Assembly: GCA_016212295.1 (NCBI GenBank)
Contig: JACRGO010000056.1
Coordinates: 1-27,239 of the forward strand
Reading direction: 5' to 3'
DNA: 27,239 nt
Origin: Nitrospinota bacterium
GTDB taxonomy: Bacteria > Nitrospinota > Nitrospinia > JACRGO01
Shown: piece by piece, positions 13,294 to 26,806 of the stretch
How positions within the stretch are numbered: position 1 is the first letter of the stretch
How the letters are laid out: each line of letters starts with the position of its first letter
The notes under the pieces: generated by a model
Told to the model about the DNA's origin: nothing
What the model saw: the letters and a program-made list of their open reading frames with translations, nothing else
The model's database searches: none
Made by a program: the position numbers and the translations under genes

Positions 13294-13343
13294 ATATTAT
13301 TACGTACAGAAATTTATTTTGGTTGAGGTCATGCCGCGCTATG
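13294..13343 (+). repeat. Dispersed repeat ending in a start codon (copy 1)
   Basis: The 33-base core at 13311-13343 begins AATTTATTTTGGTTG and ends GCCGCGCTATG. Related 33-base copies are at 20216-20248 and 24382-24414. The final ATG of this copy is the start codon of the nucleotidyltransferase. The 22 bases at 13294-13315 (ATATTATTACG, then a variable base, CAGAAATTT) recur with one mismatch at 14978-14999. Confidence 0.75.
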
Positions 13344-14447
13344 TCCTGGTCCGTTGAAGAAAAGTTTCTTTTGCATATCCCGGGCAAGAGGGAGGCCCCA
13401 TTTCCTTTTTTGCCACAAATAGACCCTCAGCGCCTCTTGGATGTCTCCCTGAAAGAGGGAATGGCCGGGTTCTGCTACCGGTGGTTCAGGGAGTGCGGCT
13501 TTCCGGACCATTTCCCGGAGGACTTTAAAAAGGAATTCGAGCGGATTTATTTCAGCGTCCTCGCGAAAAACCTGCTCATGAAGAAAGAGTTCGATTCCCT
13601 TCTCTCCCTGTTTTCCAGGGAGGGTATACCTGTTATCCCTATCCAGGGGTTTTCCCTGCTGGATTCCCTTTACGATGATTATGGATTGAGGCCCCTGAGC
13701 GATATGGACTTTCTATTGCCCTCTTCCTCGATCAACAGGGCCATGGAAATTTTATCCGGGCAAGGATATGTGTCCCCTCCCAATTATCCGTTAATTTTCA
13801 TCAAGGAAGATTTTCAGGTGGACCTGCATGAGGACATCCTGAACGTCTCGCGCATAAGCGGGAGAAAGAAATACGTGGACCTGAGATTTGAAGACCTGGC
13901 GGGGCGTTATGCAGAGGAGGTCCCTGAATACCGGATGGTTTACCGGTTGAAGCTGGAGGCAAATTTTCCCCTGCTTGCCGCCCATCTGGTCAAGCACTCC
14001 TTCAGCCGCCTTATATGGTTCGTGGACCTGTTGCGGATTTTGGAATTGAGAAAGACTAAGTTCAATCCGGAGGATATGGCGGAGACCGCGGAGCGTTGGA
14101 ATCTGCTCCCTTCCGCCCTGATACCTGTCCTTTTCATCAAGGAGCGTTTTCATATAAACGTGCCGGCGGTACTGGAAAAACGAATCAATAAGGCCGGACT
14201 GCAAGGGAATTTCATTGCGCGGCTGGTTTTGAATAACCACCGCTCCCAAGGAATCGGTAATTATTTCACCGCCTCTCAAATTGGAGGCGTCATGAGCAAG
14301 GCCAGGTTTATTTGGGAATTTTGTTTCCCCAGGCGGGAGGTCATGGCTCAGATTTACCCGGAGTTGAAGGAAAGGCCGATGAAGGCGTATTTTTTGAGGG
14401 CCACGGGTTTGATATCAAGGACCTTAAGGACTATTTTTAGCCGGTGA
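13341..14447 (+). CDS. Uncharacterised nucleotidyltransferase (PF14907-like)
   Basis: A 368-residue cytoplasmic protein with a minimal nucleotidyltransferase fold. The central motif YGLRPLSDMDFLLP gives the metal-binding pair D121 and D123. A third acidic residue, D161, lies in FQVDLHEDIL. The C-terminal half is alpha-helical (HLVKHSFSRLIWFVDLLRIL), as in the family that is often encoded near polysaccharide or peptide-modification genes. No such genes are next to it here, so the substrate is unknown. The frame is open 72 codons upstream, but that part is repeat DNA; ATG at 13341 is chosen because helix-forming, family-like sequence (MSWSVEEKFLLH) starts there. The start codon is provided by the dispersed repeat, with GAGG 12 bases upstream. 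Confidence 0.8.
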   Translation: MSWSVEEKFLLHIPGKREAPFPFLPQIDPQRLLDVSLKEGMAGFCYRWFRECGFPDHFPEDFKKEFERIYFSVLAKNLLMKKEFDSLLSLFSREGIPVIPIQGFSLLDSLYDDYGLRPLSDMDFLLPSSSINRAMEILSGQGYVSPPNYPLIFIKEDFQVDLHEDILNVSRISGRKKYVDLRFEDLAGRYAEEVPEYRMVYRLKLEANFPLLAAHLVKHSFSRLIWFVDLLRILELRKTKFNPEDMAETAERWNLLPSALIPVLFIKERFHINVPAVLEKRINKAGLQGNFIARLVLNNHRSQGIGNYFTASQIGGVMSKARFIWEFCFPRREVMAQIYPELKERPMKAYFLRATGLISRTLRTIFSR

Positions 14448-17165: not shown

Positions 17166-18599
17166 ATGATTGATGAATTTCCGAAGCAGGAATGTTTAGC
17201 TTTTGAAGTCAAAGAGCGGACGGCTTTCTGCTCCACCCCACCAGCGCTGGATGCCATATTGGTCATTGACGATGATGATCTGTGGAGAGACGCGATGATG
17301 GATCTTATAAACGGCAATAATTTCAGCGCGATAGGGGCTTGCCGCGCGCGGGAAGGGCTTGGTTATTTGCGGTCGCAAAATAATATCTCCATGGTGATCC
17401 ATGATCTCAAGCTTCCGGATGTAAAGGGATTTGAGGCGCTTGAGGCAATAAAGGACATTAATTCAGATATGCCGGTTGTCATGTTGAGCGCGCATGGAAA
17501 CGCTCCCTCCATAGTGGAATGCATGAAACGCGACGCGTATGATTTTATTGAAAAAGGAGGAGATTTAAACAATATTCTTGCCGCCGTCAAGAGGGTCATA
17601 AGGGAACGGAACCTTAAAAATGAGATAAAGAGCCTGGAAAAAGCAATCGACCGGTCGCTGGTTGATATTATAGGCAGGAGCAAGTCGTTGGAGAAAATAA
17701 AAAGGGACGCCAAGCAAGTGGCCCAGACGGATCTTTCAGTGATAATTCATGGAGAAACAGGGACAGGAAAGACCGTCCTGGCCAGAAAAATCCATGCGCT
17801 CAGCAACCGCTCGAATAGACCATTTCTAAAGGTGGATATAGGAACTCTTACAGAAACCCTGATCGAGAGCGAGTTGTTCGGACATGAAAAGGGGGCTTTC
17901 ACCGGCGCCGCCTCAAGGAAAAAAGGTTTTTTCGAGGCGGCCAATACCGGGACCCTGTTTATAGACGAGATAGAAAACATGTCGCCTCTGGTCCAATGCA
18001 AACTTCTAAGCGTGGTGGAGGAAAAAAAGTTTTATCCGGTAGGCGGCAGCCTGCCGATGAATATAGACGTGCGCCTGATTGTCGCCACCAACCAGGATCT
18101 GGAAAAAAGCGTATCGGAGAAAAAACTCAGGCAAGACCTTTATTACAGGCTGAATGAATACAGCATTTATATGCCCCCATTAAGGGAACGTGCAGATGAC
18201 ATTGCCTTTTTCACTGATAAATTCATCGCCGAATTTTGTGATGACAGTAAAATTCCGAAAAAGGAAATAACGCCGGAGGCACTGAAAACCCTGACTGCCT
18301 ATTCATGGCCCGGCAATTTAAGGGAACTGAAAAACGTCTTGAGAAAGGCCGTCTTTTTTTCGCCCGCGAAATTCATAGACGCAAAAAATATAAGTGATTT
18401 TATAGCTCCGGATAGCGGCAAGGATGAATCGCCGCTGGGCCTGCCTCTTTCCCTGAAAGAGGCGATGAAAAGGCACGAAATGGAAACCATTAAAAAGGCT
18501 TTGCGCATCGCGAAAGGAAATAAAGCCAAGGCCGCCTCCATTCTGGAAATAAGTTGCCGTGGACTCTATATAAAAATAAAGGAATACGGCATTCAATAG
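17166..18599 (+). CDS. NtrC-type sigma-54-dependent response regulator
   Basis: A transcription activator of 477 residues. The receiver domain is at about 28-148, with an acidic pocket (VIDDDD), phospho-acceptor D80 in VIHDLKLPDVKG, and the conserved Thr/Ser and Lys (VMLSAHG, DFIEKGG). The AAA+ domain is at about 172-400: Walker A GETGTGKT (196-203), the sigma-54 contact loop GAFTGA (243-248), Walker B TLFIDEIENM, and WPGNLREL. A Fis-type helix-turn-helix ends the protein (AKGNKAKAASILEISCRGLY). All motifs needed for sigma-54 activation are present. The first 27 residues before the receiver are unusual. AGGAG precedes the ATG. The nearest kinase is the hybrid sensor at 20767-22836 in the same orientation. 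Pairing is inference. Confidence 0.95.
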   Translation: MIDEFPKQECLAFEVKERTAFCSTPPALDAILVIDDDDLWRDAMMDLINGNNFSAIGACRAREGLGYLRSQNNISMVIHDLKLPDVKGFEALEAIKDINSDMPVVMLSAHGNAPSIVECMKRDAYDFIEKGGDLNNILAAVKRVIRERNLKNEIKSLEKAIDRSLVDIIGRSKSLEKIKRDAKQVAQTDLSVIIHGETGTGKTVLARKIHALSNRSNRPFLKVDIGTLTETLIESELFGHEKGAFTGAASRKKGFFEAANTGTLFIDEIENMSPLVQCKLLSVVEEKKFYPVGGSLPMNIDVRLIVATNQDLEKSVSEKKLRQDLYYRLNEYSIYMPPLRERADDIAFFTDKFIAEFCDDSKIPKKEITPEALKTLTAYSWPGNLRELKNVLRKAVFFSPAKFIDAKNISDFIAPDSGKDESPLGLPLSLKEAMKRHEMETIKKALRIAKGNKAKAASILEISCRGLYIKIKEYGIQ

Positions 18600-18647
18600 A
18601 CTCTTGCCCGCCTGTTCTGTGCTGCAAATCCATCAGACTACCTTAAA

Positions 18648-18770
18648 AATGAACCGCCGAGACACAGAGGCGCGGAGATTTTCGTAAAATGTTTATCTGT
18701 TGGGGCACGATGCATCGTGCCCTTACCTTTCTCAGCGTCTTCGCGCCTCAGTGGTAAATAAATTTTAAGA
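18648..18770. repeat. Dispersed palindrome cassette, copy 1
   Basis: A GAACCGCCGAGACACAGAGG word leads into a perfect 20-base palindrome, GGGCACGATGCATCGTGCCC (18703-18722). After it come the complementary words CTCAGCG, CGCGCCTC and AGTGGTAAA, so the whole unit folds back. A second copy is at 26156-26255. The rest of the gap 18600-19092 shows only an ACCACAGAGTCCAAGG word near 19046 and no gene. Confidence 0.8.
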
Positions 18771-19092
18771 TTTAAATATAAGGGAAATTTCCTGCGAACC
18801 AGTGAATTAAATTTCAACTGTCTTGACCCCTTCATTTTAAAGGCGCAAATGGAAGTTTGCATTTCCGCGCTCGAAATTCCATTCAACATCTTCTCCCTTC
18901 TTTAATTCGAATTGCTTGAAAAATTAACGTCCTCTGTTTTGGCATTGATCATGCAACCATATTAATAACCTCACGGCCTTTGCCGGCAGCAAGAATTTTT
19001 CCACAGTCCGGCTTAAGGATAACAAAGTTTTTAAAAGTATTTTTAACCACAGAGTCCAAGGCTTTTAAACTTTTTTTTGAAAGGAGGCCCGC

Positions 19093-19425: not shown

Positions 19426-19607
19426 ATCGCCGGCTTCAGGCCCCGTGGAGGCGTTGGCCCTGGATGGAATGGCCGGAAAATACCTTACCTTCAAACTCGC
19501 TCACGGCGATGGGAAAGGTGGGGAACAAGGTGCTGACCCTGCTGGACATAGACTGTGTCTTCAGCGAAATGGAAATCGAGACCGTGGCGGACGCGATTGA
19601 AAATTGA
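19409..19607 (+). pseudogene. cheW: Collapsed cheW remnant
   Basis: CheW couples chemoreceptors to the kinase CheA. Frame 1 from ATG 19409 encodes an N-terminal piece ending GKYLTFKLAH, matching the first strand of CheW. A different frame, shifted by one base relative to it, then encodes MGKVGNKVLTLLDIDCVFSE and ends at 19607, matching the CheW C-terminus (GKVGD-V-ILLDID-V). About 100 central residues are absent, and the two ends meet near 19500 in different frames. This fits an internal deletion followed by, or creating, a frameshift. The N-terminus overlaps the upstream hypothetical gene by 17 bases. The identification rests on two short but ordered motifs. Confidence 0.65.
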
Positions 19608-19684
19608 TGATTGACAATTGAAAGTTAAAAATCATCAATTGAACAATCATCAATCGTGAATTAAACAATCGACAATCGTAAATT
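19605..19684. repeat. ATTGATGATTGACAATTG word repeat
   Basis: Short-period words in both orientations (TGATGATTGACAATTG, ATCATCAATTG, CAATCATCAATCG, CAATCGACAATCG) fill the gap between the cheW and MCP remnants. It can fold through ATTGATGATT/AATCATCAAT. This is a further intergenic word family in the window, found only here. Confidence 0.7.
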
Positions 19685-19878
19685 ATGCAGTTGGCGGGGG
19701 AGGTTTCCAGCGCAACCGAAGAGCAGGCAAAGGGGATAGAGCAGATCAACGTGGATTGCTTCACCGCAAGGAAGGCGCGCAAAAGGGACTCAAAACGGCC
19801 GGTAAACCTGTTCACAGGGAGATCAGGCCGGACGACGTCATACCCATGTATGAAGATGGAGACTTCAAGGAGTTCTGA
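19685..19878 (+). pseudogene. Collapsed methyl-accepting chemotaxis protein remnant
   Basis: One frame (from 19685) encodes VSSATEEQAKGIEQIN, the hallmark MCP signalling-helix segment. A different frame then encodes EIRPDDVIPMYEDGDFKEF and stops at 19876-19878, matching the acidic C-terminal tail seen in many MCPs. The segment between is short, so a large part of the receptor has been lost, including sensor, TM, HAMP and most of the coiled coil. Downstream a third frame runs open to a TAA at 19989-19991 that overlaps the next ATG (TAATG). It may be residue of another cluster gene but was not identified. Confidence 0.65.
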
Positions 19879-19990
19879 AAATAAAGGTCAAGGCTCCATG
19901 CCCGCCAGCGGTGGCCAAGGAAAAGCCGTTGCGTAAATTCCTGCGGGATGTTTTAAGTGTGGAAATTATTATCATGGAGGAACCAAAATA

Positions 19991-20197
19991 ATGGACACCT
20001 GCGTTATATGCAGTGAAAAAATTAGAGACATGCGTATCAAGGTTTTTCATGATGTTGCGTGCTCGCTGAACTGCGCGGATGAATACTCGCTCGTATATGA
20101 AGAACCTTTCAAATCATCCAATGGGTTTTCTTTCACATGGCTGAACCCGCCCGCCGCTCATCGCGGGCAAACCTCAAAGTCCGCGGAACTGAAATAG
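19991..20197 (+). CDS. Small CxxC protein, possible zinc-binding
   Basis: A 68-residue protein with CVIC near the N-terminus and CSLNC about 20 residues later (MDTCVICSEKI, then VACSLNCADEY). This spacing is compatible with a zinc ribbon or a shortened treble-clef fold. GGAGG at 19976-19980 is a plausible Shine-Dalgarno. The start ATG overlaps a TAA stop of the preceding open frame. The last 15 or so residues run into intergenic repeat-like DNA, so the functional part is probably the first 45 residues. Not recognised as a known family. Confidence 0.45.
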   Translation: MDTCVICSEKIRDMRIKVFHDVACSLNCADEYSLVYEEPFKSSNGFSFTWLNPPAAHRGQTSKSAELK

Positions 20198-20215
20198 AAC
20201 GCGGATAACACGGAA

Positions 20216-20248
20216 AATTTATTCTGGTTGCGGCCGTGCCGCGCCATG
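20216..20248 (+). repeat. Dispersed 33-base repeat (copy 2)
   Basis: This copy runs AATTTATTCTGGTTG to CCGCGCCATG and contains the hairpin GCGGC-CGT-GCCGC. Its terminal ATG (20246) is in frame with the kinase fragment. The GGAGG that overlaps and follows it is the Shine-Dalgarno for the next in-frame ATG at 20258. Confidence 0.75.
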
Positions 20249-20257
20249 GAGGATGCC

Positions 20258-20770
20258 ATGAAAAAAAATCTTGGCGGTTTGAACAGGATAAAGCGTGAGC
20301 ACTTCGATAAGTCATTGAAGGCCCTTGATTCCGCGCTTACGAATTGCGAAAGCGGCGAGTTGTGCAGGACAAGCGCGCTAAAGCTTTTCAAGGCTGTAAA
20401 AAAACTACGGATTAATTACGAGAAGCTGGAAAAAAGCATCATTGAGAGAAACGCCGAACTCGCGGAGACGAACAATAATCTTATCAGGGAAATCGCGGGG
20501 CGAAAGAAGACGGAGGACGAAATGCGGTCGGCAAAGGAGAGGGCGGAAGAGGCCGTGAGGCTGAAGGACCAATTCGTTTACATAGTCGCCCAAGACCTTC
20601 GCGCGCCGCTTCTTTCCATATTAGACTGCATGGACCTGTTGCTGAAGGATGAAACGCACCCGCTCTCCTTGAGGCAAAGGGAAGTCATCGAAAAAGCCAT
20701 GGCGGGCGGAGGCTGGATGCTTGATTATATAAACCAGCAAGACAAACGCTTTTTAAGGCATGAAACATGA
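20258..20770 (+). CDS. Truncated histidine-kinase-like protein: coiled coil plus HisKA with His replaced by Gln
   Basis: A 170-residue cytoplasmic protein. A helical coiled coil (IIERNAELAETNNNLIREIA) leads into a HisKA-type dimerisation helix. The H-box reads FVYIVAQDLRAPLLSILD, so the phospho-acceptor His position is Gln (Q112). No HATPase catalytic domain follows and the protein ends after RQREVIEKAM and about 20 more residues. Compare the downstream hybrid kinase, which has FVSLVAHDLRSPFNSIMG in the same context. The two are evidently paralogous. ATG at 20258 is chosen for GGAGG at 20248-20252; ATGs at 20246 and further upstream are in frame. The stop overlaps the hybrid kinase ATG (ATGA at 20767-20770), implying coupled translation. 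It could act as a dimerisation partner or decoy, or simply be a relic. Confidence 0.8.
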   Translation: MKKNLGGLNRIKREHFDKSLKALDSALTNCESGELCRTSALKLFKAVKKLRINYEKLEKSIIERNAELAETNNNLIREIAGRKKTEDEMRSAKERAEEAVRLKDQFVYIVAQDLRAPLLSILDCMDLLLKDETHPLSLRQREVIEKAMAGGGWMLDYINQQDKRFLRHET

Positions 20771-24156: not shown

Positions 24157-24386
24157 AAATTTAGTAACTGTTCACGGAGTGTCATGGAAAACGGCTTCAC
24201 GCTCAATTGCAGAGGGAAGTACATCCCCCTTGGTCCCCCTTTGCCAAGGGGGAATACGGGAAACACCCCTAAAACGGGTTCTGTTTTAATTCCCCCTTGG
24301 CAAAGGGGGACCAAGGGGGATGTAAAAAATAGCCAATGAAGCTTTCTCCGGTTTTCATGGTAACCCCGTGAACGGTTACTAAATTT
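24157..24386. repeat. Nested inverted-repeat element of about 230 bp
   Basis: Outer arms (24157-24177, AAATTTAGTAACTGTTCACGG, and its inverse at 24366-24386) match at 20 of 21 bases. Inner arms are perfect over 34 bases: 24220-24253, starting TACATCCCCCTTGG, against 24291-24324. Between the inner arms is a 37-base spacer. It sits immediately upstream of the NarL-type regulator start and may include its promoter. The inner arms belong to the same family as 13088-13164. Confidence 0.85.
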
Positions 24387-24414
24387 ATTTTGGTTGCGGC
24401 CATGCCGCGTTATG
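24382..24414 (+). repeat. Dispersed 33-base repeat (copy 3)
   Basis: Runs AATTTATTTTGGTTG to GCCGCGTTATG with the perfect small hairpin GCGGC-CAT-GCCGC. It overlaps the right end of the nested inverted repeat by five bases. Unlike copies 1 and 2 it does not lead into a gene on the plus strand. Confidence 0.75.
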
Positions 24415-24465
24415 CCCGAAAGTATATGAAAACCGGCATGGGAAGGCAAGAGCGGACTTTAAAGA

Positions 24466-26117: not shown

Positions 26118-26155
26118 GAATTAGATTTATGATTTAAGATTTCAGATTAAAAAAA

Positions 26156-26255
26156 ATGAACCGCTGAGACGCGGAGATTTTTATAAGATGTTTATAGGTG
26201 TTGGGGCACGATGCATCGTGCCCTTACATTTCTCCGCGCCTGTGGTTAAAAAGTT
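26156..26255. repeat. Dispersed palindrome cassette, copy 2
   Basis: Contains GAACCGCTGAGACGCGGAG, the perfect palindrome GGGCACGATGCATCGTGCCC at 26204-26223, and the inverse words CTCCGCGCC and GTGGTTAAA. Same layout as 18648-18770. The right end overlaps the nicotinamidase stop codon (26246-26248). The AT-rich AGATTTATGATTTAAGATTT words (26119-26150) sit between it and the GGDEF-like start. Confidence 0.8.
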
Positions 26256-26806
26256 TTTAGTTTTGCCCCCGCCCTTTTCATCTCCTCCAAGGCCCTTTGG
26301 CTGTCACCGGGGGTTGCATCCACGCCTTTGACGCAGTCCGTCAGCACGAACACCTCGAATCCCTCCTTCAGGGCGTCCAGGACCGTGGCCTTCACGCAGT
26401 AATCAGTGGCAAGGCCCCCGACCCAAAGGGTCTGGACCGATTTTTCCCTGAGCAATCGGGCGAGGCCGGTCCCCTCAAAGCCGGAATAGGCGTCCTTTTC
26501 CCTGTCCCCGGCCTTGGAAATGATCGAGTCCAGCGACGGGTCTATCTTGAGGCCGGGATGAAACCCGGCGCCGCTGGTTTCCCGGACGCAGTGGACCGGC
26601 CACTGGCCGCCGCGCTCCAGGAAGGAGCAATGGTCCGGTGGATGCCAGTCCCGCGTCGCGAATACCGGCATTTTACTGTCCCTGCATTTTTCGATCAACA
26701 GGTTGAGTGGGGCTATGATTTTGTCCCCTTCCGCCACGGCAAGGGCTCCGCCGGGGCAGAAGTCGTTTTGGACGTCAACGATAAGAAGAGCGGTTTTTGG
26801 GTTCAT
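26246..26806 (-). CDS. pncA: Nicotinamidase / pyrazinamidase
   Basis: Hydrolyses nicotinamide to nicotinate and ammonia in NAD salvage. The 186-residue isochorismatase-fold protein has the catalytic triad D11 (LIVDVQNDFCPGGAL), K98 (ISKAGDREKDAYSGF) and C137 (GLATDYCVKATVLDAL). Metal ligands D53, H55, H59 (TRDWHPPDHCSF) and H72 are present. The cis-peptide region WVGGLATDYC is typical. All active-site residues are intact and the length is normal. The stop codon lies in the palindrome cassette that separates it from the GGDEF-like gene, so the two need not be cotranscribed. Confidence 0.93.
   Translation of the reverse strand: MNPKTALLIVDVQNDFCPGGALAVAEGDKIIAPLNLLIEKCRDSKMPVFATRDWHPPDHCSFLERGGQWPVHCVRETSGAGFHPGLKIDPSLDSIISKAGDREKDAYSGFEGTGLARLLREKSVQTLWVGGLATDYCVKATVLDALKEGFEVFVLTDCVKGVDATPGDSQRALEEMKRAGAKLKTF

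Follow-up and report, generated by a model that had tools for sequence, protein, structure and literature searches.

A truncated HisKA-only reading frame with a His-to-Gln H-box, probably a decaying paralogue, ahead of a hybrid histidine kinase in a Nitrospinota bacterium

Closest described systems

DivL, the pseudo-histidine kinase that controls CckA in Caulobacter, carries a tyrosine in place of the phospho-acceptor histidine, and works without that histidine as well as without the CA domain (PMC4211667). In Corynebacterium glutamicum, a laboratory-arisen ChrS kinase that lacks the CA domain through a frameshift (ChrS_CA-fs) alters HrrS-dependent signalling and may act through the paralogous kinase (PMC9491836). 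In the RetS-GacS heterodimer, the pairing of two kinases through their DHp domains serves as a control device.

The locus described here lies in a stretch of 27,239 nucleotides (the window) from a Nitrospinota bacterium, and consists of a short HisKA-only open reading frame (the fragment) directly followed by an intact hybrid histidine kinase (Table 1). As in DivL, the histidine of the fragment is replaced within a recognisable DHp domain. However, DivL, a protein with known partners that is conserved throughout the alphaproteobacteria, still has its transmembrane segment as well as its PAS and CA domains, whereas the fragment comprises 170 amino acids without a sensor or CA domain and is known only once. 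With ChrS_CA-fs the fragment has in common that it is a CA-less kinase paralogue, but the ChrS variant retains its histidine and its membrane sensor, and its binding to HrrS went undetected in a two-hybrid assay. RetS-GacS is among the nearest structures to the predicted model of the fragment, but RetS and GacS are both full kinases with sensors, whereas the fragment is a single domain. Searches of the literature on HisKA-only proteins and degenerate kinases yielded these precedents and no closer match; by analogy they make a pseudokinase role reasonable, but they are not evidence for such a role of the fragment itself.

Table 1. Features at and upstream of the fragment-kinase pair (positions in the window)
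Feature	Position	Strand	Basis or remark
NtrC-type response regulator (REC, sigma-54 AAA+, Fis HTH)	17166..18599	+	Pfam; nearest intact gene upstream
cheW remains: pieces of the N- and C-terminal ends, without the middle and with a broken frame	19434..19607	+	Sequence comparison
mcp remains: two short stretches from the C-terminal end, with the bulk of the gene missing	19685..19881	+	Sequence comparison
Dispersed intergenic repeat AAATTTATTYTGGTTGCGGCC...	20209..20248	+	Ends ~10 nt before the fragment ATG
GGAGG, Shine-Dalgarno-like	20248..20252	+	Sequence; 5 nt 5' of ATG 20258
HisKA-only open reading frame (fragment), 170 aa	20258..20770	+	Sequence, Pfam, AlphaFold2 model
Degenerate H-box segment VAQDLRAP	20585..20608 (approximate to a codon or two)	+	Sequence, alignment
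Intact hybrid histidine kinase, 689 aa	20767..22836	+	Sequence, Pfam

The HisKA-only frame and its predicted fold

The fragment starts at ATG 20258 (in-frame alternatives being ATG 20246 and TTG 20228), and its TGA at 20768-20770 overlaps the ATG of the kinase at 20767 as ATGA, just as the earlier note on this DNA had read it. The probability of 170 open codons at the local base composition is about 2e-4. In-frame codon usage scores 0.363 bits per codon, versus 0.349 for the kinase and -0.161 for the other forward frames, and the synonymous codon bias exceeds that expected from composition alone (z 4.7) and matches that of the genes in the window. The open frame is therefore not due to chance, and since both measures are gene-like, the fragment is, as judged by its codons, a gene now or was one until recently. 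No stop or frameshift interrupts its 170 codons. In simulations of neutral drift, which counted substitutions and no indels, 17% of the outcomes were still free of stops at 0.1 substitutions per site and ~3% at 0.2, which leaves two options: a fairly recent truncation, or selection acting to preserve the open frame. The fragment is truncated relative to the intact family copies in the same genome, which have open frames of roughly 380-980 aa, and sensor, HATPase and receiver are all missing from it.

The encoded protein consists of an N-terminal helix (residues ~1-56), a coiled coil (~50-100) and the DHp helices alpha1 and alpha2, of which alpha1 has Q in place of the phospho-acceptor histidine and alpha2 has diverged at its end. 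HisKA is the sole Pfam match (residues 103-160, 22.6 bits, E 1.1e-4) and falls below the curated cut-off of PF00512 (26.9 bits), while a genus-specific family profile matches the fragment clearly (69 bits). Neither an HATPase_c match nor a sensor domain or transmembrane segment was found in the protein, in line with the earlier description of a HisKA-only protein with a coiled coil and no ATPase domain. The first 56 residues are without significant kin. An N-terminal HAMP remnant, to which an ungapped match with a G001 kinase had pointed, was rejected, since Pfam detects no HAMP and a shuffle test on the local alignment gave p 0.46.

The H-box reads VYIVAQDLRAP in the fragment versus VSLVAHDLRSP in the downstream kinase, so that the difference between VAQDLRAP and VAHDLRSP pointed out in the earlier note was confirmed. 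The glutamine codon is CAA and the family uses CAC or CAT for histidine, which makes the replacement a single transversion. It is also a unique one: the histidine is present in 43/43 intact reference copies (drawn from both genomes of the genus) and in 5/5 other stumps, leaving the fragment as the only one of 49 aligned family sequences with glutamine.

The AlphaFold2 model, calculated from 35 aligned sequences, has a mean pLDDT of 92 and an intact two-helix hairpin, with helices at residues 2-29, 34-130 (the coiled coil continuing as DHp alpha1) and 138-169 (alpha2). The top Foldseek matches were the GacS kinase, the ERS1 DHp domain and the RetS-GacS DHp complex; the nearest solved structures are thus DHp domains, at weak scores (E 0.01-0.2, none below 0.01). 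High AlphaFold2 confidence is common for long helices and is no test of function, but the model does indicate that the DHp hairpin of the fragment can exist.

Kinase family, relatives and surrounding DNA

The family to which the fragment belongs corresponds to HisKA, HATPase and receiver, which make up the C-terminal half of the kinase downstream, and is present in the same genome as a dozen intact copies, each with a family score of at least 279 bits, next to four stumps: the fragment and those on contigs C111, C189 and C199. Further copies occur in the second genome of the genus at 44-53% identity, compared to at most 36% outside the genus, which makes the family a lineage-specific expansion. 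Its copies are 40-60% alike, and several show internal deletions. The C111 stump (G000:C111, L127:2246-3004) resembles the fragment in having lost its HATPase while its frame remained open. In this stump an in-frame deletion has removed the HATPase and the first part of the receiver, including the first acidic residues of the latter, so that HisKA continues directly into the second receiver part and a frame of 253 aa is left. Unlike the fragment, it retains its histidine and part of the receiver and does not lie upstream of a kinase. Because the C111 frame is open despite this deletion, an open frame is no sign of function in this family. The C189 stump consists of a HisKA stump followed by a receiver end that is out of frame, and that of C199 measures 75 aa; both have also kept the histidine.

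Conservation within the fragment is uneven. Up to the alpha1-alpha2 loop it keeps 15/21 strongly conserved columns (third-lowest of 47 sequences), while at the end of alpha2 it keeps 1/5 (the lowest of the 47). The losses include the histidine, the threonine and lysine before it and the glycine after it, whereas the hydrophobic alpha1 core (F, V, V, L and P around the H-box) is kept. The HisKA branch of the fragment is the third-longest of 47 in FastTree, but was not flagged as long in an IQ-TREE run. Read from the alignment, these losses would fit relaxed constraint on catalysis, and they could also suit a role in dimerisation only.

The downstream kinase combines a transmembrane segment, GAF, coiled coil, HisKA (with the histidine), HATPase_c and receiver (Response_reg). 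It is the best match of the fragment within the genome (41% over the 129 residues 28-156, 83.8 bits), which is due to the coiled coil that is also common to both; other family copies are equally or more similar over shorter stretches, and for HisKA alone identity is 49% to the adjacent kinase versus up to 58% to other copies. A sister pairing of the two is neither supported nor rejected (AU p 0.64), in a tree with few supported branches. The earlier description of the kinase as the intact paralogue of the fragment is therefore to be read with caution. An identity of just 41-49% rules out that the fragment is a recent tandem copy of this kinase. No frameshifted HATPase remainder was seen in any frame between the stump and the kinase start; the final part of the stump matches the family in none of the frames, and its junction with the start of the kinase is clean. 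As for a promoter between the two, consensus sites occur at chance level only. The kinase has a weak Shine-Dalgarno sequence of its own (AAGG at 20755-20758), compared to the GGAGG of the fragment.

Among 77 genomes of the class, no second HisKA-only frame was found: all other matches at E<=1e-7 lie in open frames of at least 253 aa, the 75-aa C199 stump falling just outside this threshold. A search for orthologues of the fragment found none, either in the single further genome of the genus or in the remaining class genomes covered. The full downstream kinase has no orthologue in that same-genus genome either, and its relatives in genome_contigs are only 23-32% identical and come from other phyla.

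Upstream, the 1.66 kb between the NtrC-type regulator, which is apparently not part of the fragment-kinase pair, and the fragment contains no intact gene of a known family. What it does contain, within 0.45 kb (19434-19881), are the collinear remains of a cheW and an mcp gene, each of which has lost its middle. Positions 19504-19595 are 80% identical to an intact cheW (G000:C222:4863-4953), and the two mcp pieces are collinear with an intact 679-aa MCP on the same contig, at 82% and 80% identity. The intact paralogue of this cheW-mcp operon extends over G000:C222:4438-7120 (L195), to which the surviving pieces in the window show 80-82% identity. Running from a repeat to the start codon of the kinase, and with two shredded genes before it, the fragment thus lies in a setting that is the strongest argument for decay.

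Several further elements were observed in the intergenic DNA. The AAATTTATTYTGGTTGCGGCC repeat has additional copies at 24381-24417 and 13310-13346 as well as on several other contigs, on which it is also found close to several of the family's kinase genes. Another dispersed intergenic repeat, with ~20 copies genome-wide, occupies 18645-18773 and 26152-26264 of the window, the former copy carrying the perfect 20-base palindrome GGGCACGATGCATCGTGCCC. The copy at 18645-18773 and the AAATTTATTYTGGTTGCGGCC copy at 20209-20248 bracket the cheW and mcp remains. A small open frame at 19991-20197 has a zinc-ribbon-like CxxC start (MDTCVICSEKIRDMRIKVFHDVACSLNC...) and no convincing Pfam match, and may be a remnant. 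Upstream of a gene for a LuxR-type regulator, a self-complementary stretch of ~230 bases (24157-24386, 71% identical to its own reverse complement) looks, from its sequence, like a hairpin or MITE-like element.

Origin and possible role of the fragment

The earlier note had offered two readings of the fragment, i.e. a phosphorylation-dead dimerisation module that could form heterodimers with the kinase, or a duplicate in decay. Of the two, the genomic data tend to favour the second, while the first keeps the open frame and the intact predicted hairpin on its side. In our judgement the fragment is probably an old, truncated paralogue in decay, which is probably still translated ahead of the kinase. 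Its source would be an expanded kinase family that is shedding copies within the genus; one such copy would have lost its sensor end, ATPase and receiver domains and been left directly before another member of the family, the order of these events being our reconstruction. Given the open frame and the good ribosome-binding site, translation ahead of the kinase via the ATGA overlap probably continues, and the resulting protein would be a catalytically inactive, helical DHp hairpin, the persistence of which would most economically reflect incomplete decay rather than selection for a role in signalling. Decay is favoured because of the cheW-mcp graveyard, the other family stumps, the unique His-to-Gln replacement, the lost conserved columns and the long branch, as well as the lack of recurrence in the 77 genomes and an N-terminal part without kin. 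Against it speak the open 170-codon frame, its gene-like codon bias and the kept alpha1 core, and also the pLDDT of 92 with an intact hairpin and the tidy arrangement of ribosome-binding site and ATGA overlap.

The same features could be those of a functional pseudokinase, which would be made together with the kinase, form four-helix DHp heterodimers with it (or bind the receiver or another partner) and damp or gate autophosphorylation. Besides the coding-like frame with its ribosome-binding site and overlap, the confidently predicted hairpin, with the GacS kinase and the RetS-GacS DHp co-complex among the nearest structures, and the 41% identity to the kinase over coiled coil and alpha1 are in its favour, as are the precedents of DivL and ChrS (PMC4211667, PMC9491836). 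Nevertheless, we consider it unlikely: the fragment is unique, the conserved residues at the end of alpha2 are gone, its neighbourhood is a graveyard with family stumps elsewhere in the genome, and a HisKA identity to the adjacent kinase no higher than to other copies gives no indication of specific pairing. Moreover, long helices usually score high in AlphaFold2, and for the truncated ChrS no binding was detected by two-hybrid (PMC9491836). That a stand-alone, phosphorylation-dead DHp module, co-translated with the kinase, sets the output of the latter through DHp heterodimers, i.e. acts as a dedicated dominant-negative subunit, is distinctly unlikely.

It could also be that the protein is useless and that the frame is kept as a leader cistron, since ribosomes that finish the fragment would start on the kinase by coupled translation, in which case stops or frameshifts in the fragment would lower kinase output. 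Such coupling, read from the sequence, would suit the ATGA overlap, the weak Shine-Dalgarno sequence of the kinase compared to that of the fragment, the lack of an above-chance promoter-like site between the two, and a frame that is intact though constraint on its conserved residues looks relaxed. However, a gene-like synonymous bias is also expected of a recently dead gene, and we regard this explanation as quite improbable. Far less credible is an assembly artefact, in which collapse or misjoining of kinase copies would have created the truncation. The genome is in 237 contigs and several family copies have internal deletions, but copies that are 40-60% alike are too distant for easy misjoining, the stump end has no family match in any frame and passes cleanly into the kinase start, and such an error cannot yield a histidine-to-glutamine change.

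Should the fragment be a remnant, it would join several other signs that a sensor-kinase family in a little-known lineage undergoes rapid birth and death, and would warn against taking an open frame and a neat ATGA overlap on their own as proof of function. Should it be functional, a minimal pseudokinase subunit would be within reach of evolution in very few steps, and the locus would serve as a natural test case for the control of a partner kinase by a DHp hairpin alone.
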